In this document: piece by piece, positions 5,652 through 20,440 of the stretch | Position numbering within the stretch: the stretch's first letter is position 1 | How the letters are laid out: each line of letters starts with the position of its first letter | Assembly (NCBI GenBank): GCA_014860455.1 | Contig: JACZJQ010000244.1 | Span: 1-45,463, forward strand | DNA from: Bryobacteraceae bacterium | GTDB lineage: Bacteria; Acidobacteriota; Terriglobia; Bryobacterales; Bryobacteraceae | Reading direction: 5' to 3' | DNA: 45,463 bases | Made by a program: the position numbers and the translations under genes | The notes under the pieces: generated by a model | What the model was told of the DNA's origin: nothing | Databases searched by the model: none | The model's input: only the letters and a program-made list of their open reading frames with translations

Positions 5652-5894
5652 CCGCATGACCGTCCAATTCACCCCATGGACGGGGAACGGAGCCGCTTGG
5701 ACTCAGTGCCGGGTCGATCGTCAGCGACGGTTCGCGCGGTGCGATGCCCACAACTGGAGTCGGTTGACGGAAACGCGTGGTACGCCTGTCATGCGCGTGA
5801 GGGCGACCGCCGGTTCGGTCGGCGCGTTAAAATCGCATACACACGAGCGCGAGAGTCGATTCGCCTGCTTCTTCGCATAGACAAGGAGGCCAGC

Positions 5895-7940
5895 ATGAAC
5901 AGACGTACAGCCCTTATCACACTTGCATCGGCAACGACGGTGCTCTCCGCGCCGCGATTCCGCGTCTATGCGCGGTGTTTGCCGGACTACCTCAGCGGGT
6001 TGGGGCGGGAGGCATATCAGCGGCGCAATGCTGCGCTGGCTGGCCTGACGACCCCGGCCGCGGTGGAGGCGCGTCAGCAGTGGGTGCGGGAGAACTTTGG
6101 GAAGTTGACGGGCGGTGAACCCGAACGCACTCCTCTGATGGTGCGGGAGGCCGGCGGGTTCGACCGGCCAGGGTACCGGATGGAGAGGCTGAGTTACGAG
6201 AGCCGGCCCGGCACGCGCATTCCAGCCAACCTGTACATCCCCGCCGGCGGGAATCCGCCGTATCCGGGCGTGCTGTTCCAAATGGGACACAGTCTGAACG
6301 GAAAAGCGAACGACTCCTATCAGAAGTGCTGCCAGGGTTTGGCGAGGCTGGGCTATGCGGTCCTGGCGTTCGATCCGATGGGCCAGGGCGAGCGGACTTA
6401 CTACCGAGTCGGGGACGCCGACGAGGAACACTCCCGCGCCGGGCGTCAGATGCTGCTGGTCGGTGATACAGCGACGAGGTTGCAGGTTTGGGATGCGGTG
6501 CGGAGCCTGGACGTGCTGGCCGGACATCCAATGGTCGATCCGAAGCGGCTGGGATCGACCGGGCAATCGGGTGGCGGGACGCTAACCATGCTGCTGGCGG
6601 CGGTGGATGACCGGCTAGCCTGCGCCGTTGTGTCCTGCGGGAACACGGAGAACTTCGCCTGTGCCGGGTTCAATCCGCCCGGTTCGACCGACGATGCGGA
6701 ACAGAATCTGATCGATTCCGGACCTATAGCCTTCGACAGGTGGGATCTTCTTTACCCGTTGGCGCCCAAGCCGCTGCTGGTGCTGGCTAGCGAGCGTGAC
6801 TCGTTCGGGACATACTCGCCCAGCTATGTACAAAGCGGCGAGGAAGAATTCGCCAAGTTGCGGCGGGTATACCAGATCCTGGGGAAGGCCGACCGGTTGG
6901 AGTGGATCACGACGGCGCTGCCTCATGCGCTGACTCGCCAGTTGAGGCAGCACACCTACGGGTTCTTTCAACAATGGCTGATGGACCCTGCCGGGACGGC
7001 ATCAAAGGCGGTAGAGGAGCCTGACGTCCTCCCAGAGCCGGAATCGAATCTGTTGGCTGGCGTGAGACCCGCGCGGGTGGTGATGGCCAGGCCCACTCCG
7101 GCGGCGGTGGATCGGGCGCCGTTGGCGGCATTGCTACGGGTGAATGTGCTAGAACAGCCCAAGCTGGCCGTGATGGGCCGGGAAGTGGGTGAAGGGTGCT
7201 GGATTGAGACGATCGAGATCGAATCCGCGCCGGGCGTCTTCCTACCCGCGTATCTGTTCTTGCCCGAGGATGAGAAGAATCGGACCTCGGCCCCGCGTTC
7301 CCTCCTGATTCTCACCGAACCCGGCGGGCGAGTCAGACGGTGGCGCGAAGGAGATCTCTATCCGAGGCTGGCCGCGGCGGGCATCGCCGTTTGTGCGCTG
7401 GATGTGCGCGGTGTGGGCGACCTGCGCCCCGAGGTGGGGCGAGGCAGCCAGTCGTACACGATCTCGCACGCCAGGGAGGAAGCTTACACATGGGCATCCA
7501 TGATGCTGGGCAAACCCTTGCTGGGGCAGCGCGTGGAGGATCTGATCGCCTCGGTGCACGCGGTGAAGGCGCACGCCGGGCAGGGGCGGCGCGTTGTTCT
7601 CGCGGCGCAGGGAATGATGGTAGTCCCAGCTCTGTGCTCGGCGGCGCTGGAACCGGCGATCGAAACCGCGTATCTCTCCGGAGGCCTGGTTTCGTGGTCG
7701 AGCCTGATGGATGTGGATGAGTATGCCGAGCCGTTCGCCAACTTCCTGCCGGGCGTCTTGAAAAAGACCGATCTGCCGTTTATCGCACGTGCGGCCCTGC
7801 CGCGCCGTGTGGTGATTGCCGGTGCTGTGGACGCGAAAGGGTCGACAGTGGAAAGCGCGGCTGTGAGCGATTTGTACGGTAAGGGCGTGGAGGTGCGGGC
7901 CCAATCGGATTGGAGCATGGGAGCGCTGGCTGCGTTGTAG
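5895..7940 (+). CDS. Tat-exported two-domain alpha/beta hydrolase (acetyl-xylan-esterase-like)
   Basis: Predicted secreted serine esterase of the alpha/beta-hydrolase (AXE1/dienelactone hydrolase-like) group, 681 residues. The reading frame is open further upstream, but ATG 5895 is chosen: AAGGAGG lies 8 bases before it and a Tat-like signal (MNRRTALITL...) begins there. Residues ~100-390 form a complete hydrolase domain with nucleophile Ser225 in the elbow GQSGG, an acid candidate in ASERDSFG and a His candidate in ALPHAL. Residues ~420-681 look like a second hydrolase fold (LILTEPGG, ALDVRGVGD). At its nucleophile elbow the sequence is AAQGM, with Gln572 where Ser would be, so this half is probably non-catalytic. 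It follows the broken propeller gene at a 243-base distance and is likely transcribed alone. Substrate unknown; esters on plant polysaccharides are plausible. Confidence 0.75.
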   Translation: MNRRTALITLASATTVLSAPRFRVYARCLPDYLSGLGREAYQRRNAALAGLTTPAAVEARQQWVRENFGKLTGGEPERTPLMVREAGGFDRPGYRMERLSYESRPGTRIPANLYIPAGGNPPYPGVLFQMGHSLNGKANDSYQKCCQGLARLGYAVLAFDPMGQGERTYYRVGDADEEHSRAGRQMLLVGDTATRLQVWDAVRSLDVLAGHPMVDPKRLGSTGQSGGGTLTMLLAAVDDRLACAVVSCGNTENFACAGFNPPGSTDDAEQNLIDSGPIAFDRWDLLYPLAPKPLLVLASERDSFGTYSPSYVQSGEEEFAKLRRVYQILGKADRLEWITTALPHALTRQLRQHTYGFFQQWLMDPAGTASKAVEEPDVLPEPESNLLAGVRPARVVMARPTPAAVDRAPLAALLRVNVLEQPKLAVMGREVGEGCWIETIEIESAPGVFLPAYLFLPEDEKNRTSAPRSLLILTEPGGRVRRWREGDLYPRLAAAGIAVCALDVRGVGDLRPEVGRGSQSYTISHAREEAYTWASMMLGKPLLGQRVEDLIASVHAVKAHAGQGRRVVLAAQGMMVVPALCSAALEPAIETAYLSGGLVSWSSLMDVDEYAEPFANFLPGVLKKTDLPFIARAALPRRVVIAGAVDAKGSTVESAAVSDLYGKGVEVRAQSDWSMGALAAL

Positions 7941-7942
7941 GG

Positions 7943-7966
7943 ATGGCTGTCGAGAAGCTCAGCCAT
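7943..7966 (+). terminator. Stem-loop just after the hydrolase gene
   Basis: ATGGCTG (7943-7949) and CAGCCAT (7960-7966) form a 7-bp stem with a 10-base loop, 2 bases after the TAG. There is no clear T-run behind it, so termination is only a possibility. Confidence 0.35.
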
Positions 7967-8228
7967 TCGGATTTCGCCCTCACAGGTCCTTGCCGAGGTC
8001 TTCCTTCATGCAGCTCTTCCCGAAGGTCACCCCGATAAGGCTCGCGGCTCCTCTCGCGGTGGAGGGATGCTGTTTTTTCCCCTGTGGTCCGTAAGAATAC
8101 CGTCCACTTGTAGCATCAACGAGTTCCGAGTGGGGTCTTAACAACGTTACATTCGGCCTCCGGCACTCAATCGGCGTTACGCAGCCCCCATGTCCAGCCG
8201 ATTTGAGATTCCCGAAAGGCTTCCCCCA
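7967..8228. other. Convergent intergenic region, nothing recognised
   Basis: This stretch separates the ends of two converging genes. I see no open frame with protein-like content, no repeat and no RNA gene in it. Confidence 0.4.
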
Positions 8229-10856
8229 TCACTCCGGATAGGCGGCCAGTGTGAGTGTTGAGCCGCCCGGCAGAGTACAAAGAGGCCGGAACGCAACCCG
8301 CAGTCCCTCGCTGTCGCGGACGGCGGAATGGGGAGCACGGCATTCGACCCTTGCCAGGCTGCCCTGGAACGGTAGACTCAGCGTCGCGATTTCGAGGTCT
8401 CCTTCTTCCACGCGCAGTTCGGCCCTGAGCCCTTTTAGGGTGAAGTCGTGCGAATAGACGCCCCAGGCGGAACCGGCGGTGAAGAGAGTCCGGAAGACGC
8501 CCCGGGGTTGACGGGGGTGAAAGCTGAGTTCCCTCGACGGGGCCGAGTAGCTGAAGCCGGAGTACGCGGTGAGCAGCGACCAACTGGACATGGCGCGGGC
8601 ATAGTGGTGGCCGAGTTCAATCTCGTTCCACGGGTTGCGTTTGACTCCGTCGTAGCGGGCGCGCACGGCGTCGACGATGGCCACGCCTTCCTTCACCATG
8701 CCCTCGTAGATGAGGTGCGCGGCCACCTGGTATTCGATGCCGGTCCAGACTTCGTCGCAGTAGACGAAGGGCAGCGGCGGCCGTTTGCCGCGGGGCCAGG
8801 AGCACAGCAAGAGGCCGGATTCATCGCCGGTGGCGAAGATGCGTTGAAGATTCGGAAAGCCCTCGAATCCGTTACGGAAGTTGTGTCTAAACACGGAGGC
8901 CAGCGCGGCGCGGATATGTTCACGCGGCAGAAGCCGGCCGAGTCCGACCACCTCGGCAAACCACTGGCCAAGCAACTGGTCAGACAGGCAGCCGTCGCCA
9001 TACTGATACTTGCGGGCGGCGGGCGCGGACTCGTCCACCTTCTGGACGAAGTATTCGCCGTTCCATAGTAGCCGGTCGAGTTTGGCGGCGCCGGCGGCGC
9101 GGAGTTCGTCGTAACTGCGGGCGGTTTCGGCTTCGCCGAGATGCGCGGCCATGCGCGAGGCGGCGGCGAGAGCGCCGAGGTAGAGTGTCCCCATCATGGA
9201 ATTGGGGCCGTAGAAGTTGATGTCGTAGGTATTGTGCTGCTCGCCCTCCATGACGCCATCACGGTCGGCGTCCCATTTCACCCAGGCGTATTCGAGGGCG
9301 CGCTTCACCTCGGGCCACAAGCGCCGCAGCCAGGCGTCGTCGCCGCAGATCCGCCACTCGCGGTAGACCTTGAGCACGCAGCCCATCTGGCCGTCGGCGG
9401 CGGGGTGGTTCCTGTTGCCTCCGGGCACGGGCGGAACCGGGGTGCGGAAGCTCATGCTGCCGTCGGCTCGCATGTTCATGAGGAAGTCGAGTTCCCGCAT
9501 GCTGCGTTCGAGGTCAGGGTATAAGTGGGCCAAGCTCTGCTCGTAGTTGTAGACATGCGTGCAGTTCATGGGACATGAACCTTCGTGGTCCGCGCACCCC
9601 TCGAAGGCGAACACCACCTTGCCCTCGCCGACCATAACCGTGTTTGTGCGCATGATGGACGCCTGGCTTGAGACGGCGTCGATGACCGAGGGCGGTAAGG
9701 TGGAACCGTGCAGCGCGTCACGATAGCGAAGCGAGCGATCACGAAGGGTATCGAGATTCCGCATCAGATAGGCGGCCGGCTCCCAGGCCGAGGGCCAGCG
9801 GCCGCCGTACCAGTTCCGCATGGTCCTGGCATGGGGCAGGGCGGCGGGGTCGTAGTTCTCGACGACCGGGAAGTGCCAGGAGAGAACGAAGTTCACTGAC
9901 CGGGACTGGCCCGGATCGAGGGTGAAATGCGAGGCGAGGGTGGCGTAGTTGGTGAGGCCGTCGGGCGAGGGGGCCGGAGAGCCGCCCAGGAAACGGCCCG
10001 CCGTGAGGAATTCGTCATACCAGAGGTGGAAGTCGTCCCACCAATCGCCCTGTTCCCAGGTGAGACGGTAAGAAATGTCGCCGCCCCGGGTGGCGAGGGC
10101 GAAGCTGCCGTGGCGGGGGGAATCGGGCTGGTATTTGCGGCTGCTGAAGAGCAGGCCGTGAATGTCGCCATCTCTCCGGTACTCATTGACGTTGGCGCCG
10201 AAGAAGGGCCGGTTTCGGTCCGCGAGGGTGCCGGATAAGAGGCTTTTCCCGTCGTAGCCGACCGGGTTGATGGCCGAGAAGGCGACTGTCACATCAAGCG
10301 GAGCGGGCGCTTTGGAGACGAGCCGGTAGGTGAGCACGGCGGCGGGGAGGCTGGAGTTTGCAGTGTCCAGCGGAATCATGGGATTGAAGGCTTCTAGGGA
10401 GACCATCGCCGGGACTTGGTCATCCTGGAAGCCGATGTTGGCGAACGGGTAGGCGCCCTCGAAGACGGCGCCGCTGAAGTGGGGCAGGCCCACGGCCTGT
10501 TCTCGGTGCAAGCCAAATCCGCCCTGGTAGGGAGGCAGGGGGCGGCGCTCGAGTACGCGGATAAGGGGCCGCTTCAGGCCGCCGCCGGAGAGGCGCATTG
10601 CGCCGAAGGTGAATGGCAGGATGCCGCCCTTGTTCGGGCGGTTGAAGATCTCCCAGTCACGCAAATTCCCGTAGCCGCCAAGCGAGACCGTGCCTGTACC
10701 AAGCCCGCCCAGAGGGAATGCGATTTCGCGGAGAGCCTCGCCCTCGAAGATCCGTCCGCGGGGGCGGACCCCTCCGGCGGCAGGCGCGCCGGAGGCGCGG
10801 GCAAGGGCCGGGGCGGCGGCGGTGCTGCGGAGCCAGTCGCGGCGGCTGAGCTTCAT
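8229..10856 (-). CDS. Tat-exported GH116-like (DUF608) glycosyl hydrolase
   Basis: Relative of non-lysosomal glucosylceramidase GBA2 and bacterial GH116 beta-glucosidases; 875 residues. The N-terminus has a Tat signal (SRRDWLRSTAAAPALA). Residues ~35-340 form the GH116 N-terminal beta-domain (FPLGGLGTGTVSLGG is the family signature). Residues ~370-860 form the (alpha/alpha)6 catalytic barrel with NCTHVYNYEQ (431-440), GEQHNTYDINFYG (538-550) and CDEVWTGIEYQ (700-710). From memory of characterised GH116 enzymes, the acid/base Asp sits in a TYD-type motif, here Asp545. The usual nucleophile Glu, a few residues before a (M/V)YN motif, seems replaced by Asn/Cys/Thr in NCTHVYN, so the reaction is uncertain. 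This is the last gene of the TetR-controlled unit. Its ATG overlaps the TGA of the preceding CocE-type gene by 4 bases, implying translational coupling. Confidence 0.8.
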   Translation of the reverse strand: MKLSRRDWLRSTAAAPALARASGAPAAGGVRPRGRIFEGEALREIAFPLGGLGTGTVSLGGYGNLRDWEIFNRPNKGGILPFTFGAMRLSGGGLKRPLIRVLERRPLPPYQGGFGLHREQAVGLPHFSGAVFEGAYPFANIGFQDDQVPAMVSLEAFNPMIPLDTANSSLPAAVLTYRLVSKAPAPLDVTVAFSAINPVGYDGKSLLSGTLADRNRPFFGANVNEYRRDGDIHGLLFSSRKYQPDSPRHGSFALATRGGDISYRLTWEQGDWWDDFHLWYDEFLTAGRFLGGSPAPSPDGLTNYATLASHFTLDPGQSRSVNFVLSWHFPVVENYDPAALPHARTMRNWYGGRWPSAWEPAAYLMRNLDTLRDRSLRYRDALHGSTLPPSVIDAVSSQASIMRTNTVMVGEGKVVFAFEGCADHEGSCPMNCTHVYNYEQSLAHLYPDLERSMRELDFLMNMRADGSMSFRTPVPPVPGGNRNHPAADGQMGCVLKVYREWRICGDDAWLRRLWPEVKRALEYAWVKWDADRDGVMEGEQHNTYDINFYGPNSMMGTLYLGALAAASRMAAHLGEAETARSYDELRAAGAAKLDRLLWNGEYFVQKVDESAPAARKYQYGDGCLSDQLLGQWFAEVVGLGRLLPREHIRAALASVFRHNFRNGFEGFPNLQRIFATGDESGLLLCSWPRGKRPPLPFVYCDEVWTGIEYQVAAHLIYEGMVKEGVAIVDAVRARYDGVKRNPWNEIELGHHYARAMSSWSLLTAYSGFSYSAPSRELSFHPRQPRGVFRTLFTAGSAWGVYSHDFTLKGLRAELRVEEGDLEIATLSLPFQGSLARVECRAPHSAVRDSEGLRVAFRPLCTLPGGSTLTLAAYPE

Positions 10857-12715
10857 TTGGCGCCCCCGGAGTTGCGATGCACCACCGGCAGGATGAGTGC
10901 CGAAGGTTCGTCAGGATTGTGGAGAACGCGCTGAGTGGCGGCGATGCGCGCCGTTTCGGTTGCGATTTCGCCGCCGGTGTTCGGATTCACGTCGTAGCGC
11001 GGCGAGTTCGAGGAACTGATTTCGAGGCGGATGCGGTGGCCGGGCTGGAAGCTGACGGCCGTGGGCCCGAGTTCGATATTGAAGGGATAGACCTGGCCGG
11101 GTTCGAGCAGCGCGGGTTTGTCGACGCCATTGCGATAGCGGGCGCGGAGGATGCCTTCGCAGACGATGAGCGCACGGCCGTCGGGGAAGACATCGACGAG
11201 TTTGGCGGTGAAGTCGGTGTCGCGCGCAGTGGACGAAGCGAAGATGCGGGCGCGGACCTGGCCCATGACGAGCAGCGGCTCGTTCATGGCGTCGCTCGTG
11301 TAGACCAGGACATCCTGGCGGCCTTCCACATCGCGCTGGTCCACCGGGCCCGCGGTCCAGGCGTTGCCGTGCCCGCCACCTTTAGTGGGGACGGGATTGG
11401 ATGGATCGAAGACAAAGGTGTCGCCCGGTTCGGTTGCGGAGGCGGCGCCCTCAGTGAGCTGGCCGTCACCGTGGAGCGTGCGGGCGTTGCCGCCCGAGTG
11501 CAGATAGAAGGAACGGTCGATTGCGTCGCGGGGCGGCCACTGGTCTTCATCGCGCCAGGTGTTGGCGCCCAGGACGTAGGCCCTCACGGCGGGCCGGCGG
11601 TCCCAGCCGTTGGACTGGCCTTTGAGCGTGTAGTCCAGCCAGTCCTTCGACGCTTTGACGAACTCGAACGGAATCGCTTCCATCGCCCGCTGTTCGATGC
11701 CGTAGTTCTTCAGGTTGTTGTTGAAGAAGCTGTGGCTCCAGGGGCCGATAAGGATTTTGGACGCGGCGCGAACACCTGCGGGAGCGTGGGCGCGGATGCG
11801 CTCGAAGTCGCGCATCTGGCCGTCGAGCAGGAAGTCGTACCAGCCGGCGGTGAGGAACGCCGGGATGTTGATCTGTTCCACACGGCGGCCCGGGCTCATT
11901 GGGTCCCAATAGTCATCGGGCTGGGGGTGGGAGATCCAATCGTTGTAGAAATCGATGTCGCGCAGGGCTGCATTGTCGGAATCGATCAGCGGCAGGTGGC
12001 CGAAGCCGCGTTTGATGTTCTTTGCGCCGTTCCAATCGCCGTAACGGCCGTAGCTATTGAGGCTCCACTCGAGGAAGGTCAACTGAGCGAAGGCGCCTCC
12101 CTTGTACATGCCCTCATAGAGGTCGCCGGTGATGAAGGTGGGTGCAATCGAGGCCAGATGCGGGTTGCCGGCCGCCATGGCCCATTGGGTGAAGCCGAGG
12201 TAGGAGACGCCGAACGCTCCGATCTTCCCGTTCGACCACGGCTGCCGCCGCACCCAGGCTGTGAAATCCACGCCGTCCTGGGCTTCATGCCGGAAGGGGT
12301 AGAAATCGCCTTCGGATTTGTGACGCCCGCGCGTATCCTGGACCGCCACCACATAGCCGTAGCGGGCGAAGAACTCGCCGATCAGCTTGCCTTCGTCCTT
12401 GTTGTACGGGGTTCGGACGATGATCGCGGGATGGGGGCCGGCGGTGGAAGGATGGTAAAGATCAGTTGCCAGACGAACGCCGTCGCGCATGGCGACCATC
12501 TCGCCGGTCTGGACGCGGAGACCTTCACCGGCCCAACCTGTTCCGGCGCGAAGGGCGAGCCCGCGGATCAGCAGTTGCGTCGCGCAATAGCCGGCCGCGG
12601 CCTTTGCAGCCTCAGGGAAGAAGACGCGGAAGCCGGCCAGCAGGATGGCGAGCAGCAGGATCGGGATCAGAACCCAGCGCAACACAGCACGCAACAATCG
12701 ACGGACTCGCGACAT
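10853..12715 (-). CDS. Membrane-anchored CocE/NonD-family (S15) hydrolase
   Basis: Serine hydrolase of the X-Pro dipeptidyl-peptidase S15 / CocE family, which cleaves esters or amides; 620 residues. An N-terminal membrane segment (~12-30, VLRWVLIPILLLAILLAG) preceded by Arg residues suggests an inner-membrane anchor with the catalytic part in the periplasm. The hydrolase fold covers ~70-350. The family signatures are MRDGVRLATDLYHP and DTRGRHKSEG. The catalytic triad candidates are Ser171 (GVSYLG), Asp294 (GWYDFLLDGQ) and His328 (GPWSHSF). Residues ~370-615 form the jelly-roll C-terminal domain (YTSDAMNEPLLVMG, GHRIRLEISSSNSPRYD). It lies 13 bases after the amidohydrolase gene and overlaps the GH116-like gene by 4 bases, so it is inside one operon. 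It may remove acyl groups from the same glycoconjugate that the neighbouring glycosidases attack (inference). Confidence 0.85.
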   Translation of the reverse strand: MSRVRRLLRAVLRWVLIPILLLAILLAGFRVFFPEAAKAAAGYCATQLLIRGLALRAGTGWAGEGLRVQTGEMVAMRDGVRLATDLYHPSTAGPHPAIIVRTPYNKDEGKLIGEFFARYGYVVAVQDTRGRHKSEGDFYPFRHEAQDGVDFTAWVRRQPWSNGKIGAFGVSYLGFTQWAMAAGNPHLASIAPTFITGDLYEGMYKGGAFAQLTFLEWSLNSYGRYGDWNGAKNIKRGFGHLPLIDSDNAALRDIDFYNDWISHPQPDDYWDPMSPGRRVEQINIPAFLTAGWYDFLLDGQMRDFERIRAHAPAGVRAASKILIGPWSHSFFNNNLKNYGIEQRAMEAIPFEFVKASKDWLDYTLKGQSNGWDRRPAVRAYVLGANTWRDEDQWPPRDAIDRSFYLHSGGNARTLHGDGQLTEGAASATEPGDTFVFDPSNPVPTKGGGHGNAWTAGPVDQRDVEGRQDVLVYTSDAMNEPLLVMGQVRARIFASSTARDTDFTAKLVDVFPDGRALIVCEGILRARYRNGVDKPALLEPGQVYPFNIELGPTAVSFQPGHRIRLEISSSNSPRYDVNPNTGGEIATETARIAATQRVLHNPDEPSALILPVVHRNSGGAK

Positions 12716-12728
12716 CGGGGCCGCCCTC

Positions 12729-14423
12729 CTAATCCTTCTGTTCCGGCGGTTGGAAGACCGAGTCCTCCACGGGCACGTTAAACGCCACCTGCCGAGTCAC
12801 CACCCAGATCAGGCGCGGACTTTCATAGCGGATCTGGTGCGGCACCGGGACGCCGTCCACCTTCCGGTAATCCTCAAACTGATAACGGACTCGCTGGGCG
12901 ACGCCGTTGGCGAACGTTTCCGTCGAGTCGATGGCAAGCAGAAGCCCGGTTGAATTGTCGAACCAGAGTTGGTCGGTCTCGCCCGATTCGGTGCGGGCGT
13001 CGAGTATGATGGCGTCGAACTCGTCGATGCGGCCGCGGCCCATCACTGTGAGGCGCGGATACAGGCCACGCAGGTTGAGCGGCAAGTGGAACTCGGCCTG
13101 TCTTCGGACCTCGGTGAGGCGCGGGCCGGAAAGGAGCTCAAATCCGTGGTCGGGGCCCTCTTCCCAGGCGCGGAGGCCGTCGAAGGCGCGGTCAAGCGAG
13201 GCGTAGCCGGGGAATCGGAAAGTCCGGCGAAAACTGCGAGGCGCTTTCTCGACTTCGCGGTACTCGCCGTAAGCGCCGTACGTGGAGACAAAGATGGACC
13301 CGGCCGCGCCGCGCGTGGTGATTTTGCGCAATGCCGCTTCGCCGCCCATGGCGTTGAGGTAGCGCGCGAGGACCTGGTCTGGTGTGGGCAGAGCCTGCGG
13401 GGCTGCCGGCGCCGCGAGGCCTGGGATCCAGCGCAGGGCATTGTCGTGGAAGATCTTGCGCAGGACTGGCTGGGGCAGCGCGAGGTCGCGGGCGAAGAAC
13501 TGCCACTCCCTCTGGTAGGCAGCCTCCCAGCGCGCGATAGCGCCTGGCGGGTTGTTCCATTTCAACTCCATGGCATCGGTTCCCCAGAGGACGCGGTCCT
13601 GGTAGCGGATCATGAAGGCGCGGACCTTGTCGCGCGGCTGTCGCTTGAGATCGGTCAGGCGTGCGGCGGTATCGACGGCGAAGTTGGGATAACGGTCCAA
13701 CCGGCGGGCTACTTCATCGACATCGTGTTCCATGCTGCCGAGGTGGCAGCCGACGATACGGAGTTTCGGGTGGGCGGCGAGCACACGGTCGCGGGCGGCT
13801 ATTATAGACTCCCAACGCGGACGCTCCGGGTGCTGGAACATGTGCCAGTCCGTATTCGCCTTGTAGTAGCCGTGATGGGGGTCGGCAGGATCGAGCGGGA
13901 GCCAACTGGAACGGGGTTCGGCAAGATGGGTGAACAAGGTGACGCCGCCGGCGGCGATGGCGTCGAGCACAGGCGCAAAGGCCGGATGGTCAGGCAGGAC
14001 AAAGTTGCCTTCGCCCGATTTCAGGTGCAGGCCGATGTTTTTGTACATCTTGACGGCCACGGCGCCGCGGGCGAAGTCCGCCGCGAGCCGGCGCTTTTCG
14101 GTTTCAGCCCAGGCAGCGGATTCAAAGCCCGCCGGGTCGAACGGAGCGGCCCAGGCGATGCGGCCGGCGGATTTCGCCGAGATGCCGGCGGCCATGGTGG
14201 ACTGGGGTTCGGGCTTGTCGAAGCCGGGTGCGAGTGGGTCAACGAGAGTGACATTGAGAAGCCGCACCTTCAGCCGGTCCATCATTTCGAGGAAGGCCGG
14301 GGGCGGAGGCGCCACATGCGCATGGGCGTCAATCCGCTCAAAGGCTGGCGCCTGCGCCTTCGCCGGTGCGGCCAAGGCAAGCAGGACGGCGATCGACCGG
14401 GCGAGCCACAACATGCCGGTCAC
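12729..14423 (-). CDS. Secreted amidohydrolase fused to a LolA-like C-terminal domain
   Basis: A 564-residue protein of two parts after a signal peptide (residues 1-24, ending AKA-QA). Residues ~30-335 are an amidohydrolase of the Amidohydro_2 (lactonase/decarboxylase-like) group. It has metal-site candidates His34 and His36 (DAHAH), His166 (FTHLAEP), His227 (GCHLGS) and Asp283 (GTDAME). Residues ~345-560 resemble the beta-barrel of LolA/outer-membrane lipoprotein-sorting proteins (LARYLNAMGGEAALRKI, LWFDNSTGLLLAIDS, YRKVDGVPVPHQIRYES), a domain that binds lipid-like ligands. The combination in one chain is unusual to me. The gene starts on an ATGA overlap with the GH172 gene and ends 13 bases before the CocE-type gene. 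Substrate unknown; a lactone or carboxylated aromatic or sugar acid is possible. Confidence 0.8.
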   Translation of the reverse strand: MTGMLWLARSIAVLLALAAPAKAQAPAFERIDAHAHVAPPPPAFLEMMDRLKVRLLNVTLVDPLAPGFDKPEPQSTMAAGISAKSAGRIAWAAPFDPAGFESAAWAETEKRRLAADFARGAVAVKMYKNIGLHLKSGEGNFVLPDHPAFAPVLDAIAAGGVTLFTHLAEPRSSWLPLDPADPHHGYYKANTDWHMFQHPERPRWESIIAARDRVLAAHPKLRIVGCHLGSMEHDVDEVARRLDRYPNFAVDTAARLTDLKRQPRDKVRAFMIRYQDRVLWGTDAMELKWNNPPGAIARWEAAYQREWQFFARDLALPQPVLRKIFHDNALRWIPGLAAPAAPQALPTPDQVLARYLNAMGGEAALRKITTRGAAGSIFVSTYGAYGEYREVEKAPRSFRRTFRFPGYASLDRAFDGLRAWEEGPDHGFELLSGPRLTEVRRQAEFHLPLNLRGLYPRLTVMGRGRIDEFDAIILDARTESGETDQLWFDNSTGLLLAIDSTETFANGVAQRVRYQFEDYRKVDGVPVPHQIRYESPRLIWVVTRQVAFNVPVEDSVFQPPEQKD

Positions 14424-15568
14424 CTTGGAAACCGGGCCTCTCTGGGCAACATTGCCGGGAAGGCTTTATGAGGTTCGGCCTGGTACCAGTAAGCCACCGA
14501 CGAGATGTCGTCGGTGAGCGGCTGGAACTTGCGGTTCGGCCAGTGGCCCAGAGCCTGGATGGTGACCTTCAGGTTCTTCTTGAAGCGGATGGGGTCGGGC
14601 ACGTGCCAGCGGTAAACGGCGTGTTTGGGAATCTGGCCGGCCGGCTTGTGGAACAGGGGGTAGCCGAGGAAGGGGGTCGAGAACGTGGTGTCGCCGAAGT
14701 TCCAGGCGCCGCCGAAGTAGTCTTCGGTGCCGGTGTAGCAGAGGGTGGGGAACTTGTCGTCGCCATCCATGAAGAACTTCACCTCACCCTCGCCCCACCA
14801 GCCGTTGGAGAGCTGCTCCCAGCCGATGAAGGTGCCGACGTAGTGTCCCTGGCCTTCGATGCCGTCGACGATGGTGTGTTCGGGATGCTCGCGGGTGGTC
14901 ATCGACTTGCGCCATGACGCGTGGAAATAAGCCGCGTCGCCGGCCACGGCTTCCAGCGAGTAAGTGATCTGGTAGAAGAAGCCGGGGATGTCGTCGGGCC
15001 GCTGGTTTTCGACCGTGATGCGGGCCCGTTTGCGGAAGGGCATCGGCCAGTAGGAGTTGAATCCGCCGCTGGGATTGACGGCCATCATGAGGGAGTTGAC
15101 GGGATAGCGCATGGCGTGGGCGTTAGCGAAGAAGTCGCCGAGCGGAGACTCGACCGAGGGCGCGGTTTCGTCGTCCCAGTAGATGCGGAAGATGGCATCG
15201 CGGTAGGCGGCCTCGGAGACCGTGATCCAAATGTGTTGGATGATGCCAGGCCCCTGGATGTCGGCGATGGTGACGGTTCTGCGGCGGGGCAGGACGATGT
15301 CGGGGCTGACCTTCCAGCCCGTGCCGAGCGCCGAGGCTCCGCTGAGAGGCGTAGGCGCCATCCTTGCTCCGCCGCCGCGTTCTCCCGTGGGATTCTCCGC
15401 CGAAATGGACCGTGTTTCAGCGTTCCTCAATTGCGGCAACGAGGCGATGCCGGCGAAGCCGGACGCCTGCGGAGGGGTGTCCTGGGCGAAGACCGCGGGC
15501 AGCAGCGAAGCGGCCAGGGCGAGGCCGGGCAGCCAGGTGGTGGCAAGTCGGGATGAGGTTGGCGTCAT
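14420..15568 (-). CDS. Secreted GH172 (DUF2961) glycosidase
   Basis: Member of DUF2961, now family GH172, whose characterised members act on alpha-D-fructofuranosyl and D-arabinofuranosyl linkages. The 382-residue product begins with a signal peptide ending at AVFAQ (~residue 29). Family signatures are DIQGPGIIQHIW, YWDDETAPSVESPLGDFF, GWWGEGEVKFFMDGD and GTEDYFGGAWNF. Glu260/Glu262 and Glu282 in the last two are the catalytic candidates. I chose the ATG at 15568 because GGAG lies 6 bases before it and the signal peptide starts directly there. An in-frame ATG at 15634 overlaps the receptor gene's stop (TGATG) and would add 22 hydrophilic residues encoded across a strong hairpin. The gene ends in an ATGA overlap with the amidohydrolase gene. 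Export of the product to the periplasm or beyond is expected. Confidence 0.85.
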   Translation of the reverse strand: MTPTSSRLATTWLPGLALAASLLPAVFAQDTPPQASGFAGIASLPQLRNAETRSISAENPTGERGGGARMAPTPLSGASALGTGWKVSPDIVLPRRRTVTIADIQGPGIIQHIWITVSEAAYRDAIFRIYWDDETAPSVESPLGDFFANAHAMRYPVNSLMMAVNPSGGFNSYWPMPFRKRARITVENQRPDDIPGFFYQITYSLEAVAGDAAYFHASWRKSMTTREHPEHTIVDGIEGQGHYVGTFIGWEQLSNGWWGEGEVKFFMDGDDKFPTLCYTGTEDYFGGAWNFGDTTFSTPFLGYPLFHKPAGQIPKHAVYRWHVPDPIRFKKNLKVTIQALGHWPNRKFQPLTDDISSVAYWYQAEPHKAFPAMLPREARFPR

Positions 15569-15599
15569 TCGGATCTCCGGTATGGTCGCGGCAGAATAT

Positions 15600-15622
15600 G
15601 GGCGCGGCTTGCGGCCGCGCCC
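15600..15622 (-). terminator. Strong intercistronic hairpin between receptor and GH172 genes
   Basis: GGGCGCGGC (15600-15608) and GCCGCGCCC (15614-15622) are perfect 9-base inverted arms with a 5-base loop. It lies 11 bases beyond the receptor gene's stop, and no T-run follows on the minus strand. A role in partial termination or in stabilising the 3' end of the receptor message is more likely than full termination, because the downstream genes have no other visible promoter. Confidence 0.5.
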
Positions 15623-15633
15623 ATTGTTTCGCA

Positions 15634-18600
15634 TCAGAAGTGGAGCCGCAGGGTGTACTGCATCTGGCGGCCGAGGTTGGCCTGAGTCACCGAGCGGCCG
15701 AACTGCGGGTTGCCGACGGTCATGTTGGGCAGGCCAGGGACGAAGCTGTTGGTCAGGTTGTAGGCCTCCATGCGGAACTCGAGTTTGAGCGCCTCGGTCA
15801 CGGGAAAGTACTTGGCGACGCTGATGTCGATGTTCCAGTTCGGCGATCCCTTCACTCCGTCATACTGCCAGGGGTTGAGCCTGGGGGTGTAGGCGGGGAG
15901 CAGGGCGAACTTTGTGGTGTCGAAGTAGCGTTCGCGGGTTGGATTGTCGATCGACGGGTCGCCCGAGGCGAGGGCGCCGCCGAAACGCAGGTACTCGCCC
16001 GAAGAGAGAGTCCAGACGGGGCTCACCGACCAGCCGCCGATCAGCAGGTCGGCGATCCTGGGCGCGGCGGAAGCGAACTTACGGCCTTTGCCGAACGGGA
16101 GTTCGAAGGTGCCGGCGAAGGTGGTGCGGTGGTGCGGGTCCTTGCTGTTCATCATCGTGAACTGATCGGCGTAGCGATCGATGTCGTTGAAGAAGACGCC
16201 GGTTCGCTGGCGCGCGTAAGCGTAGTTCCACTGGAACTGGTAGCCCTGGCTGAACTGTTTGCGGAGGCTGAGCGACAGGGCTTGGTAGCGGTCGTCGATG
16301 CCGGGGGTGTTGCGCTGGATGAGGTCGAGGTACTGAGGGTAGGGGCGCAGTTGATAGGTGGCCGGCACGTAGGGGTAGTTCCTCAGGATGCCGGGGAACT
16401 TCTCGGCGGGGTAGGCGTTGAAGAACGGGTTGGGGGCATACTGCTCCGCGGCGGCCTTGTAGGTGTAGAGCAGTTGCGGGTCCATCAGGTTGAAGTTCTT
16501 GTCATAAGGCAGGCCGCGGCCGAGGTTGAGGAAGTAGGTGGCTTCGGCGAGGATTCCGCCGCTGAGGAAGCGTTGAAGCGAGAAGTTGAGCCGGTCATTG
16601 ACGGCGGTCCTGAGATTGGGATTGTCCCAGGTGACGGCATCGCCCAGTTGCGTATAGCGCCCATAGGCTCTGCCCACCGGCGGCAGCACGCCCGCGGGGA
16701 AGGGGTTGCTGAGCCGCGCGCCTGGAATGCCGACCGTGACCGGCGCAAGCGAAGTGGCCTGGCTGAAACCGTAATAGCCGGGATCGCTGGTGATGGTCCG
16801 GGAGACCACCAGCGGCGGGACCACGAAGCGGGCCCAGCCGGCACGAAGCGACATTTTGTCAGTGAGGCGGATGGATGCGCCGATGCGCGGCAGGAAGACG
16901 CGCGTATTGGTGCTGTACTTTCTCGGGTTGGCTTCATCGGTGAAGGCGAATGCGCCGTTGTAGCTGAAGGGCCTGCCGAACATCTGCTGAATCAGCGGGT
17001 GGAACTGCGGCGGCTTGGACTGGAACTCCGGAATCGGATTGTCGAGATCGAGAAGGCGGGTGAGCCGGTAGTCCGGGTCCATCGGCGCGGTCTCATACTC
17101 GTAGCGCAAGCCGAGGTTGAGCGTGACGCGCCGGCTGAGCTTGAAGTCATCCTGGAAGTAGAGGGCGTAGAAGTTCACCCGGCTGTCCTGAGGCGCGACG
17201 TAGGAGGCGGATCCCGCCTCGGGCGCCCCCACCAGGAACGAGGCCCAGGAGTCGCCGGTCAGGCCCCAATTCGGGTTCTGGAAGGTGTCGGCAGTGGGCG
17301 TCGGGGAGAAGCCGAATCCCATGAGGTTCGGCAGATGGACCTGCCCGTCGTGGAAGCGCGTCTCCAGGCCGGCCTTGAGGCTGTGCGAACCCTGGGTCCG
17401 GCGAACGCTGGCGTGGCCGCTATAGTGCTTTGGCGTCTGGAGCCAATAGAGGTCCTGCCCGAAGATGGCGTCGCCGACGTAGAGGGCCGGGTAGTACAAC
17501 TTGGGCAGTCCGTTCAGATAGGGCTTGTACCAGGAGTTGTTGGGCCAGAACTCGGCCAGTTGCTGCTCGCTGATCTCGGAGGGCGGCGAATCGTAGTTGT
17601 CGGCAAGACTGGCGTAGCCGAAGCGGAAACTGAAGACGGTCCGCTGATCCTTGATCCAGACGGCGTCGGCGGCGATGTTGCGGTTGTTCATGACCCCGGC
17701 GTTTGCGTCGCGTTGGGCCACCGAGCCCGAGTAGCGCTCCGGCGCGAGGTTGGTATTGACCTGGCTGTAGCGGCCGAAGACGCGCCAGGAGTCGCTTGGA
17801 TTCCAATCCACGCGCTCACTGAAGTTGATGTACTTGGTCTTCATCGGGAAGGTCGTCTTGAAGTTCTGGAGTCCCATCAGCGTGTCGCCGGCGTTGTTGG
17901 GTTTCCAGATGTCCTTCATGAAGCGAAGCGCCGCGGGGTCGAGGCTCGAAGCGGGGATCACGTTGCCGGGATACGGCGTCCGCGAAACCGCATTGCCGGC
18001 GACCTTGGTGGACCAGGGATCAAAGATCGACTGCTGCATTCCGATGGCGTTCAGGGTTTTGGAGAAGTCGCCGGTGCGCTCGATGTCGGTGGGCAGAGTG
18101 AAGAAGTTGTTGAGCGGCTCGTTCATCTTCCACTGCTCGTAAGCGGTGAACGCAAACAGCTTTCTCCTGATGATCGGATTGCCCATCGTACCGCCCCAGA
18201 TGTGATTACGCGACGTGCTCGGCTGATGGGTGATTGAATTCACCGCGGCGTTAAGCGCTGGGTTGCGGCCGAAGTAATAAGCCGTCCCGTGGAATTCGTT
18301 CGTCCCCGATTTCATGCCCACGCTGAGGATGCCGCCGGCGCTATGGCCATACTCGGCGTCAACGCTGTTCTGCTGCACGCTGAACTCCTGGACGGCGTCC
18401 ATGGGCGGCGTGTAGGAGCCCTTCGGGCCGATCTGCACGGGCGTGCCGTCGACAAAGAGGTCGTTCTGGCGGGAGTTGCTGCCGCCGACGTCGATTGTGC
18501 TCGACGACCACATAAAGAACGGGTTGGCGTTGGCCGACGCATACGCACCGGTGTAGCGGTTCACCACCATGGGATCGAGCGTCGCCAACTGGAACGGATT

Positions 18601-19074
18601 ACGCGCCATCACCGGAAGTTCCTTCAGCATCGTCTGGTTGATGGTCATATCAACGGAACTGGTATTGAAGGCGACGGCGGTGCCGGCGCCCTCCACCGTC
18701 ACCGAAGTGGTGGTTCCCTTCAACTGAAGACTGGGGTCGATGGTGATGTCGGCCCGCACCTGCACCTGCACGTCCTTCAGTTCAAACACTTCGAATCCGG
18801 CGGCTTCGGCTCGAAGCAGGTAAAGTCCGGGAACAACCAGATCGAAGACATACCGCCCCTGGCTGTCGGACTCAGCGCTGGCGGCTACGCCCGTGCTCTG
18901 GTTGGTGAGCGCGACCCTTGCGCCGGGAACCGCGGCATGGCTGGGATCTGTGACAATGCCCTGCACCTTGGCGCGGTACTCCTGGGCGCATAGGGGTGGC
19001 AGGGCGAGCGTGAATAGCGCCAGCATGGCCAACGCATGCCGGATGGAGGCGAGACGGATGAGATTGGAGAACAT
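15634..19074 (-). CDS. Oar-like TonB-dependent outer-membrane receptor
   Basis: Outer-membrane protein of the large acidobacterial family of carboxypeptidase-regulatory-like TonB-dependent receptors, 1146 residues. A signal peptide (to LCAQ, ~residue 31) precedes an Ig-like carboxypeptidase-regulatory domain (~35-120: VQGIVTDPSHAAVPGARV, SDSQGRYVFDLVVPGLY). A plug domain follows (~135-270: LKELPVMARNPFQLATLDP, NDLFVDGTPVQ, SVDAEYGHSAGG). The rest is a long beta-barrel ending in Phe (TLRLHF), the usual barrel-assembly signal. Such receptors import or bind oligomers too large for porins; the ligand is not readable. AAGGAG lies 9 bases before the ATG, and the TetR gene ends 5 bases upstream, so it is co-transcribed with its probable regulator. 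The downstream hydrolases suggest a glycan or glycolipid ligand. Confidence 0.9.
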   Translation of the reverse strand: MFSNLIRLASIRHALAMLALFTLALPPLCAQEYRAKVQGIVTDPSHAAVPGARVALTNQSTGVAASAESDSQGRYVFDLVVPGLYLLRAEAAGFEVFELKDVQVQVRADITIDPSLQLKGTTTSVTVEGAGTAVAFNTSSVDMTINQTMLKELPVMARNPFQLATLDPMVVNRYTGAYASANANPFFMWSSSTIDVGGSNSRQNDLFVDGTPVQIGPKGSYTPPMDAVQEFSVQQNSVDAEYGHSAGGILSVGMKSGTNEFHGTAYYFGRNPALNAAVNSITHQPSTSRNHIWGGTMGNPIIRRKLFAFTAYEQWKMNEPLNNFFTLPTDIERTGDFSKTLNAIGMQQSIFDPWSTKVAGNAVSRTPYPGNVIPASSLDPAALRFMKDIWKPNNAGDTLMGLQNFKTTFPMKTKYINFSERVDWNPSDSWRVFGRYSQVNTNLAPERYSGSVAQRDANAGVMNNRNIAADAVWIKDQRTVFSFRFGYASLADNYDSPPSEISEQQLAEFWPNNSWYKPYLNGLPKLYYPALYVGDAIFGQDLYWLQTPKHYSGHASVRRTQGSHSLKAGLETRFHDGQVHLPNLMGFGFSPTPTADTFQNPNWGLTGDSWASFLVGAPEAGSASYVAPQDSRVNFYALYFQDDFKLSRRVTLNLGLRYEYETAPMDPDYRLTRLLDLDNPIPEFQSKPPQFHPLIQQMFGRPFSYNGAFAFTDEANPRKYSTNTRVFLPRIGASIRLTDKMSLRAGWARFVVPPLVVSRTITSDPGYYGFSQATSLAPVTVGIPGARLSNPFPAGVLPPVGRAYGRYTQLGDAVTWDNPNLRTAVNDRLNFSLQRFLSGGILAEATYFLNLGRGLPYDKNFNLMDPQLLYTYKAAAEQYAPNPFFNAYPAEKFPGILRNYPYVPATYQLRPYPQYLDLIQRNTPGIDDRYQALSLSLRKQFSQGYQFQWNYAYARQRTGVFFNDIDRYADQFTMMNSKDPHHRTTFAGTFELPFGKGRKFASAAPRIADLLIGGWSVSPVWTLSSGEYLRFGGALASGDPSIDNPTRERYFDTTKFALLPAYTPRLNPWQYDGVKGSPNWNIDISVAKYFPVTEALKLEFRMEAYNLTNSFVPGLPNMTVGNPQFGRSVTQANLGRQMQYTLRLHF

Positions 19075-19079
19075 CCTGG

Positions 19080-19736
19080 TTAACTCCTTGTGACTGGGAA
19101 CTGGCTGCGCGAACGAAGACCCGCCGTGCCGAACGAAATCAGGTCCTGCAAGAACATGTCGGAAGTGTCGATGAGGTTTTGGCCAGGGTGCATGCGCTCC
19201 ATGTCCTGGCTGTTGATCAGGGTGTAGACCACACCTCCGAACAGGAAGTGGATCCAGAAGAAAAGCTGCGCCTCCGCAACATCGGGCGCCGCGCGGCGCG
19301 CCGCCCGCAAGAAACGGTCAATCAAACTCCCGTACAACCCCTGGACGAAGACATTGAGATGGGGATCCGGCTCGCTCTGCAACCGTCCGACAAGGAGAAT
19401 GAAGTTACGGTTTTCCTGCCAGGCCCGCACCATCGGCTCGAAAAGCGCGTAGAGCACCTGCTCCAGGGCGAGAGACCCTTCCCCGGCAGCCGATTCCGCA
19501 TCTTCGAGAAGGCGCAGGCGTTCCGCGTTGAGCGGCTGGAAGCACCGCTGGTAGACTTCCCGCACCAGGGCATCCTTCGACCGGAAGTGGTAGTTCACCG
19601 CCGCAATGTTAACTTCGGCCTGTTCCGTGATCTCCTTGAGCGAGGTCCCGCGGATGCCCTGCGTGGCGAACAACCCCTCAGCGGCATCCAGGATTCGCTC
19701 GCTCGTCGGCTTCGTGGTGGTTTCAGTCGCGCTCAT
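19080..19736 (-). CDS. TetR/AcrR-family transcriptional regulator
   Basis: A 218-residue DNA-binding repressor of the TetR class. Residues ~13-60 form the helix-turn-helix domain with the family pattern RILDAAEGLFATQGIRGTSL, then ITEQAEVNIAAVNYHFRSKDAL. The remainder is an all-helical ligand and dimerisation domain of usual length. A membrane-like or hydrophobic stretch near residue 165 (FFWIHFLFGGVVYTL) probably lines the ligand pocket. It is the first gene of the six-gene minus-strand unit and sits 5 bases before the receptor gene. A promoter with a palindrome over the predicted transcript start lies 40-85 bases upstream, fitting negative autoregulation of the whole unit. The inducer would be expected to be a breakdown product of the locus's substrate (inference). 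Confidence 0.9.
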   Translation of the reverse strand: MSATETTTKPTSERILDAAEGLFATQGIRGTSLKEITEQAEVNIAAVNYHFRSKDALVREVYQRCFQPLNAERLRLLEDAESAAGEGSLALEQVLYALFEPMVRAWQENRNFILLVGRLQSEPDPHLNVFVQGLYGSLIDRFLRAARRAAPDVAEAQLFFWIHFLFGGVVYTLINSQDMERMHPGQNLIDTSDMFLQDLISFGTAGLRSRSQFPVTRS

Positions 19737-19775
19737 CGCGGGTTCCAGGAATCTTTAACCATTTTAATCAGTCGA

Positions 19776-19821
19776 TTCAATTGATCACTTGAATTATGCA
19801 TTTCAATCGACCTTCCGTCAA
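19776..19821 (-). promoter_or_regulatory. Promoter and operator of the TetR-led operon
   Basis: On the minus strand TTGACG (19821-19816) and CATAAT (19798-19793) are separated by exactly 17 bases, each 5/6 to the sigma70 consensus. Directly downstream is the 18-base palindrome TTCAA-T-TGATCA-C-TTGAA (19776-19793), with 8 of 9 pairs matching, centred near the expected transcript start. This is a typical place and size for a TetR-family operator. A second inverted pair, GTCGATT (19771-19777) and AATCGAC (19805-19811), flanks it. Confidence 0.6.
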
Positions 19822-19864
19822 GAGCAGAATGCACTCCGGCTATCGAAAATCGGGTCGATTGCGG

Positions 19865-20440
19865 CTATCTACTTGCAACAGAATGAGTTTTCACGATGGA
19901 CGAGTATGAAAGTCTAAGCCATACGGCCTGGGAGTGCAAATACCTCGTGGTGTTCATCCCAAAGTGCCGGCGTAAGACGCTGTACAAGCAACTGAGGCCG
20001 TATCTGGGCGAGGTTTTCCGCCGGATGGCCGAGCAGAAGGAGAGCCGGATTGATGAGGGCCATCTGCTGATCGATCACGTGCACATGCTGATCGCGATTC
20101 CGCCAAAGTACGCGGTGTCGCAGGTGGTCGGCTATATCAGAGACAAGAGCGCGATCCATCTGGCGAGGGTCTACGGAGAGCGGAAGCGCAACTTCGTGGG
20201 GCAGAGCTTCTGGGCGCGAGGGTACTTCGTATCCACAGTAGGGCGAGATGAAGGAGTGATCCGGAACTACATCCGGAATCAGGAGCGGGAGGACCACCGA
20301 CTGGAGCAGATGAAACTCGGCGAATGACCAGCCACCGTCGAGGTGGCCCACCGAAACAGGGGCCGCGTTAGCGTCCCCGCTAAGCCGCTTTGAGCGGCTC
20401 ACAACCTAAAGGCCCCGGCTTTGCCGGGGGATACTTACTC
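19865..20440 (+). mobile_element. IS200/IS605-group insertion sequence (tnpA only)
   Basis: A single-gene element with a Y1 transposase and the right-end architecture typical of this group. Two stem-loops lie after the gene: AGCCGC/GCGGCT at 20383-20399 and CCCCGGC/GCCGGGG at 20413-20429. The second is followed by ATACTTACT, which I take as the right end. The left end is not clearly visible, so the start given is approximate. No target duplication is expected for this mechanism. The element landed within about 75 bases of the TetR operon promoter. Confidence 0.65.
19896..20327 (+). CDS. tnpA: IS200/IS605 Y1 transposase TnpA
   Basis: A 143-residue HUH-type single-strand transposase that cuts and rejoins DNA at hairpin-marked ends through a tyrosine intermediate. 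The HUH motif is present as DHVHML (residues ~64-69) and the candidate nucleophile tyrosine is in VIRNYIRNQE. The flanking signatures SHTAWECKYLVVFIPKCRRK, VGQSFWARGYFVSTVGRDE and QEREDHRLEQM match a very widespread branch of the family. Length is normal and no damage is visible, so it may be active. No tnpB or RNA-guided nuclease gene accompanies it. Confidence 0.92.
   Translation: MDEYESLSHTAWECKYLVVFIPKCRRKTLYKQLRPYLGEVFRRMAEQKESRIDEGHLLIDHVHMLIAIPPKYAVSQVVGYIRDKSAIHLARVYGERKRNFVGQSFWARGYFVSTVGRDEGVIRNYIRNQEREDHRLEQMKLGE

Follow-up and report, generated by a model that had tools for sequence, protein, structure and literature searches.

Bacterial loci that combine GH172 and GH116 enzymes for the degradation of D-arabinan are known from Microbacterium, Cellulomonas, and Dysgonomonas (PMC10509167, PMC10115798, PMC8605356, PMC8784342), and the two families constitute the published exo-acting pair for D-arabinan (PMC10509167). 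Here, we describe a six-gene block that contains both families in a soil-type acidobacterium (Bryobacteraceae bacterium assembly GCA_014860455.1, contig JACZJQ010000244.1), within a window of 45,463 nucleotides, by which we mean the whole stretch analyzed. We interpret this block as a TetR-controlled operon of Bryobacterales for scavenging D-arabinofuranosyl (D-Araf) glycans, whose likeliest source is the arabinogalactan or lipoarabinomannan (LAM) of mycolata, and assign this interpretation a probability of roughly 55%.

The operon shares with the Microbacterium arabinogalactanolyticum locus (EndoMA1/2, ExoMA1, and ExoMA2; PMC10509167) the same GH172 and GH116 types, with the named residues kept, but lacks the GH183 enzymes and ABC transporter described there and has instead a TonB receptor, a TetR regulator, a CocE-type hydrolase, and an amidohydrolase-LolA protein. 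Dysgonomonas gadei PUL42, a polysaccharide-utilisation locus of the Bacteroidota, produces GH172 D-arabinofuranosidases during growth on D-arabinan (PMC10115798), resembling the type predicted for the window, and its cluster also holds a putative GH116 gene (PMC10509167); unlike PUL42 as described, the window operon has neither GH183 nor a SusD-like protein. A full-text search of open-licence papers returned no report of D-arabinan or of GH172 in Acidobacteria, and one paper that names GH116 together with GH172. An earlier, sequence-only reading of the window knew of no described system with this combination, which holds, as far as we searched, for the six functions together but not for the GH172 and GH116 pair. 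Judged by sequence, the operon is best filed under D-arabinan utilisation, pending assay.

Two glycosidases of predicted D-arabinofuranosidase type

The GH172 protein matches the DUF2961 domain (PF11175) with 308 bits against a cut-off of 27, and its closest solved relative is ExoMA1 (8ic8; E 4e-98), with the next match at E 5e-47. Both catalytic glutamates, E260 and E282, are present and are kept in 98 of 98 aligned GH172 rows (matches longer than 280 residues, with seven duplicate loci removed first and one duplicate pair retained). N290 occupies the position of ExoMA1 N253, the residue said to block fructofuranose (PMC10509167), where αFFase1 has Gly299. With the domain, both glutamates, and Asn rather than Gly at this site, the protein has the features expected of an ExoMA1-type enzyme. 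Chain 8ah3 (DG02479), which we take to be DgGH172c, has Cys at the same position. Because the 8ah3 protein is an active arabinofuranosidase (PMC10115798), and Cys at the specificity site of another GH172 member is said to clash with fructose (PMC8605356), a site with either Asn or Cys probably admits arabinose alone. Over the 98 rows, the site is occupied by Asn (39), Gly (34), Cys (17), Ala (3), Asp (3), Ser (1), or a gap (1). Two adjoining GH172 genes, the first with Asn, lie downstream of a thiC-like gene (identified by eye) at L001:1153-3475 (G000:C183).

The GH116 protein is closest to ExoMA2 (8ic6; E 1e-166), followed by a glucosylceramidase (E 4e-35), which places it nearer ExoMA2 than the β-glucosidases by E-value among solved structures. 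In ExoMA2, E431 is the nucleophile and D557 the acid/base, and H446 and R483 correspond to D452 and H507 in a β-glucosidase (PMC10509167). Alignment, in which the PDB chain numbering runs 4 ahead of the paper's, as counted, equates E431, D557, H446, and R483 with E419, D545, H434, and R471 of the window protein, which points to GH116 subfamily 4, the ExoMA2 type. Among GH116 rows of more than 500 residues from the loci analyzed, 27 of 27 have all four (two rows are one locus), down to 39% identity, so that these residues mark the whole GH116 group rather than this operon. Of 220 genomes sampled from the order, 90 have GH116 relatives (E to 1e-90) and 32 have GH172 relatives (E to 1e-60); GH116 therefore mostly occurs apart from the operon.

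Operator and regulator

A CTTGAC element, a -10-like element, and then a TTCAAnTGnnCAnTTGAA-like palindrome lie upstream of TetR in all six available regions, which upholds the TetR-led operon with a promoter-operator of the sequence-only reading. The palindrome agrees at 14 of 14 fixed positions in the window, L023, and L047, and at 13 of 14 in L049, L024, and L050; relative to the other aligned loci, the best match in L024 is shifted toward the -35 by one repeat. None of 500 shuffles reached the palindrome score in any of the six regions, from which the consensus was itself derived. In the window, the palindrome lies downstream of the -10 and shares one base with it. The σ70-like TTGACG-17-CATAAT (19821-19793) is the sole minus-strand match within 7900-20000, and this simple scan found no internal minus-strand promoter-like site inside the operon; its total of 2 compares with a shuffle mean of 2.0, and the scan on its own proves nothing. 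A search of the whole genome that allowed up to one mismatch recovered the palindrome once, at the operon's own site, and yielded no further regulon sites. Given this conserved palindrome and its single genomic site, TetR is likely a dedicated local regulator of the operon.

The best NCBIfam match of the regulator is the PsrA model, although at 126 bits it falls short of the equivalog cut-off of 300. Its best PDB chain is 2fbq (E 1.9e-28), the PsrA of P. aeruginosa. The operator TTCAAnTGnnCAnTTGAA, with its one genomic site, is unlike the published C/GAAACN2-4GTTTG type. Pseudomonas PsrA binds oleic acid and is released from the fadBA5 promoter (PMC13104628), so that by analogy an acyl ligand is thinkable for the window TetR.

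Operon layout and conservation

The six open reading frames form one block on the minus strand with gaps of 5, 65, -4, 13, and -4 bp (Table 1), and stop and start codons overlap at the GH172-amidohydrolase and CocE-GH116 junctions. The Pfam and NCBIfam domains are TetR_N with TetR_C_30, OMP_b-brl_4 with CarboxypepD_reg, DUF2961, Amidohydro_2, CocE_NonD, and the GH116 N-terminal and catalytic domains. Coordinates, order, spacings, and family calls thus agree with the sequence-only reading, as does the amidohydrolase-LolA fusion, with Amidohydro_2 recovered by Pfam and the LolA half by predicted structure. The GH172 start is best placed at 15568, since the longer reading frame to 15634 begins ahead of a likely signal peptide; the amidohydrolase-LolA gene starts with GTG. 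Export or membrane signals had been proposed for all proteins but the regulator. The receptor, GH172, amidohydrolase, and CocE proteins do have hydrophobic N-termini, whereas GH116 has only a Tat-like, weakly hydrophobic RR stretch. No SusD family match was found among the six proteins and three neighbors in the Pfam/NCBIfam scan, and without a SusD-like lipoprotein the operon falls outside the strict SusC/SusD definition of a polysaccharide-utilisation locus.

Table 1. Features of the operon and its control region in the window.
Feature	Position	Strand	Evidence
Promoter/operator: CTTGAC 19822-19817; -10-like CATAAT 19798-19793; palindrome TTCAAGTGATCAATTGAA 19793-19776	19776..19822	-	
TetR-family regulator, TetR_C_30, PsrA-like	19080..19736	-	Pfam/NCBIfam, PDB match
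Oar-like TonB-dependent outer-membrane receptor	15634..19074	-	OMP_b-brl_4 E 1e-140, CarboxypepD_reg E 1e-18
GH172, predicted exported exo-α-D-arabinofuranosidase	14420..15568	-	DUF2961; E260, E282, N290
Amidohydro_2 (about 1-335) and LolA-fold domain (about 345-550), likely signal peptide	12729..14423	-	Pfam, predicted structure
CocE/NonD-type hydrolase, N-terminal hydrophobic anchor, predicted esterase	10853..12715	-	Pfam/NCBIfam
GH116, ExoMA2 type, predicted exo-β-D-arabinofuranosidase	8229..10856	-	GH116 N-terminal and catalytic domains; E419, H434, R471, D545

We compared nine loci: the window, L024 and L050 (= L004) from G014, L023 (G010), L048 (Bryobacterales SJ57), L049 (= L022; SJ9), L047 (Paludibaculum), L035 (= L031; G067), and L034 (G185). 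The nearest relatives of the operon, in Paludibaculum and Bryobacterales metagenome-assembled genomes, also identify the source of the window as a Bryobacterales acidobacterium; two of them are contigs of genomes assigned to the same family. The operon GH172 of the eight other loci is 70-89% identical to that of the window, and the order TetR, TonB receptor, GH172, (amidohydrolase)LolA, CocE was found again in other Bryobacterales. All six functions stand in order in L047, a Paludibaculum metagenome-assembled genome, with the fusion split and a CobW-like gene preceding GH116. TetR lies ahead of the receptor in six of the nine loci; L048 starts within the receptor gene, and the stretches examined for L035 and L034 yielded no TetR. 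A LolA-like domain stands beside GH172 in eight loci, fused to the amidohydrolase in four, alone in three, and fused to a BD-FAE esterase in one (L035). The amidohydrolase is found in six, fused to a BD-FAE esterase in L047, and CocE is in place in four (window, L023, L048, and L047), with a CocE-like gene about 2.5 kb past TetR or the receptor in L050 (61%) and L035 (38%). The sequence-only reading was to be abandoned if the gene order proved unique to this genome; instead, the order is shared across Bryobacterales genera. With order and operator conserved across genera, its proposal of an operon-like unit that has an operator of its own and lacks SusD stands.

The receptor and the GH172 specificity site vary together. 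Receptor orthologues (74-84% identical) occur in the other five operon-clade loci, and Asn is found in GH172 exactly where the orthologous receptor occurs (six of nine loci); the three loci with a Gly or Ala GH172 have receptors only 28-30% identical to the window's. In a quick tree, flagged for long branches that include ExoMA1, the six Asn-bearing operon GH172 proteins form one clade with support 100, and their nearest relatives have Gly or Ala. If the tree holds, a return to arabinose specificity would have been coupled with a particular receptor.

Several further features were observed in and around these loci. The BD-FAE domain is attached to the amidohydrolase at L047:11137-12975 and to the LolA-like part at L035:4856-6343, a case of domain shuffling at one operon position. 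An ADP-ribosylglycohydrolase-family protein lies between receptor and GH172 at L050:7943-9961 (scanned as L004:14236-16254). In the window, an IS200-like Y1 transposase (19896-20327, plus strand) lies immediately upstream of the operon promoter, and long α/β-hydrolase-like proteins of the AXE1/DLH type flank the operon on either side (5676-7940 and 21050-23179).

Proposed function and alternatives

The non-reducing ends of mycobacterial arabinan carry β-D-Araf on α-D-Araf, with mycolates at O-5 in arabinogalactan, and an exo-β enzyme, an exo-α enzyme, and an esterase could trim such ends unit by unit. In the pathway we infer, including its enzyme specificities, cellular locations, ligand, substrate, and order of steps, oligosaccharides or soluble fragments would be taken in across the outer membrane by the Oar-like TonB receptor. 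The membrane-anchored CocE hydrolase would strip acyl esters in the periplasm, where GH116 would cut β-D-Araf caps off the non-reducing ends, and GH172 would then cut α-D-Araf units, releasing D-arabinose. The amidohydrolase-LolA protein would probably process the freed acyl or aryl part, or hold a lipidated fragment. The PsrA-like TetR would occupy the palindrome that directly follows its own -10 until released by a substrate-derived ligand, perhaps a fatty acyl group. The natural source would most likely be arabinogalactan or LAM of dead or attacked mycolata.

Several observations weigh against this interpretation. The set of GH172, GH116, and GH183 that marks a D-arabinan locus is incomplete here: none of the six operon proteins is a GH183 endo-D-arabinanase (DUF4185), and the single DUF4185 protein encoded elsewhere in the genome is a weak match (43 bits against a cut-off of 39.5). 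In the published work, ExoMA2 is active on intact LAM, ExoMA1 is not, and complete breakdown was demonstrated in the presence of an added endo-enzyme (PMC10509167). ExoMA1 and ExoMA2 are described as intracellular, without signal sequences, whereas the window enzymes are apparently exported. GH116 lies downstream in only three of the nine loci (window, L047, and L050), and the same four ExoMA2 residues are found in GH116 proteins without GH172 in the stretch fetched. Planctomycetota, Chloroflexota, Armatimonadota, Thermotogota, and archaea have GH172 relatives with 56-69% identity to the window protein (mostly 61-69% in L051-L083); because most of them carry Gly or Cys at the specificity site, the wider clade may serve another furanoside. 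This analysis yielded no direct tie of the operon to mycolata. Given the missing GH183 and the single weak DUF4185 protein, the operon is more likely to use oligosaccharides or fragments that others have released.

The position after CocE, held by GH116 in the window, is taken by a FucP-like permease in L048 and a similar MFS protein in L023. We had considered the permease strong support for D-arabinose uptake. The FucP-like proteins, however, score 257 and 263 bits against the fucP cut-off of 280, and a relative in the window's genome (67% identical) lies on the same contig as AraB/AraD-like genes, which point to L-arabinose, for which reason we now count the permease as weak support. The region L131:2074-13446 (G000:C141) holds a FucP-like permease, a Fucose_iso_C protein, an AraB-like kinase, and an AraD-like epimerase, probably for L-arabinose use.

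For the LolA half of the window, L004, and L024 proteins, Pfam gave no match even at E 5. The predicted structure of the window's LolA half (mean predicted local distance difference test, pLDDT, 82) superposes on 3bk5 (Z 14.5, root-mean-square deviation [rmsd] 4.4, 203 residues) and 3buu (Z 12.8, rmsd 4.9, 203 residues), consistent, for a predicted model, with the LolA superfamily fold. The whole fusion was modeled with a mean pLDDT of 75 and a predicted template-modeling score of 0.57. With such a fold, the LolA-like domain might carry a lipid moiety. Likeness of this half to LprG (Z 6.7 at most) and, in Foldseek, to LprF was weak and was given no weight. In a fold search, the amidohydrolase half is similar to LigY and LigJ, enzymes of aromatic catabolism, which, together with the BD-FAE fusions in L047 and L035 and the missing endo-arabinanase, would suit an acylated furanoside other than mycolata D-arabinan, such as a pilin-type short D-Araf glycan or an aryl-acylated arabinofuranoside, with the amidohydrolase and the BD-FAE/CocE esterases processing its acyl or aryl part. 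We regard this as somewhat unlikely: the LigY/LigJ likeness is modest (TM-score 0.49-0.53 to target) and silent on substrate, and both glycosidases have D-Araf-type residues, although these are compatible with such a glycan if it holds D-Araf.

The uneven gene content of the nine loci (LolA-like in 8, TetR in 6 with one more cut by the contig, amidohydrolase in 6, CocE in 4, GH116 in 3) raises the further alternative of a loose neighborhood, in which hydrolases were added to a TetR-receptor-GH172-LolA core and GH116 and CocE act on other molecules than GH172. GH116 is a variable member, outside the constant core: among the 80 GH172 loci surveyed (the best 80 of 577), a GH116 match (E to 1e-8) lies within the stretch in four. 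The stop/start overlaps at the GH172-amidohydrolase and CocE-GH116 junctions and the lack of an internal promoter-like site in the simple scan speak against such a neighborhood. So does the recurrence of GH116 near GH172: in L036, GH116 precedes GH172 by 37 bases in the same orientation, and in L116 and L120 the two lie within about 5 kb of each other on opposite strands. L049 reaches its contig end after the amidohydrolase, and its genome has a 62% identical GH116 on another contig. We consider a loose neighborhood unlikely.

Glucosylceramide or another β-glucoside for GH116, and fructan for GH172, put forward in the sequence-only reading at the level of family membership, are very improbable, and we rejected both the glucosylceramidase/β-glucosidase reading (E 1e-166 for ExoMA2 against 4e-35; H434 and R471) and the fructofuranosidase reading (the E-value gap between ExoMA1 and the next match; N290).

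Implications for Acidobacteria

D-arabinan loci are already known in Actinobacteria and Bacteroidota; to these the acidobacterial operon adds TetR, an Oar-like receptor, CocE, and an amidohydrolase-LolA protein. Within the D-arabinofuranosyl-glycan scavenging interpretation, a more specific version has the operon serve mycolylated arabinan, with CocE stripping mycolyl or other acyl esters from terminal Araf, the hydrolase-fused LolA fold holding the lipid, GH116 and GH172 trimming the termini thus exposed, and the PsrA-like TetR reading the released acyl group. This version is quite improbable; if true, it would couple lipid sensing to sugar import. Both glycosidases, rather than fitting plant glucosides or glucosylceramide, look suited to D-arabinose, which is characteristic of cell walls in mycobacteria and related bacteria.
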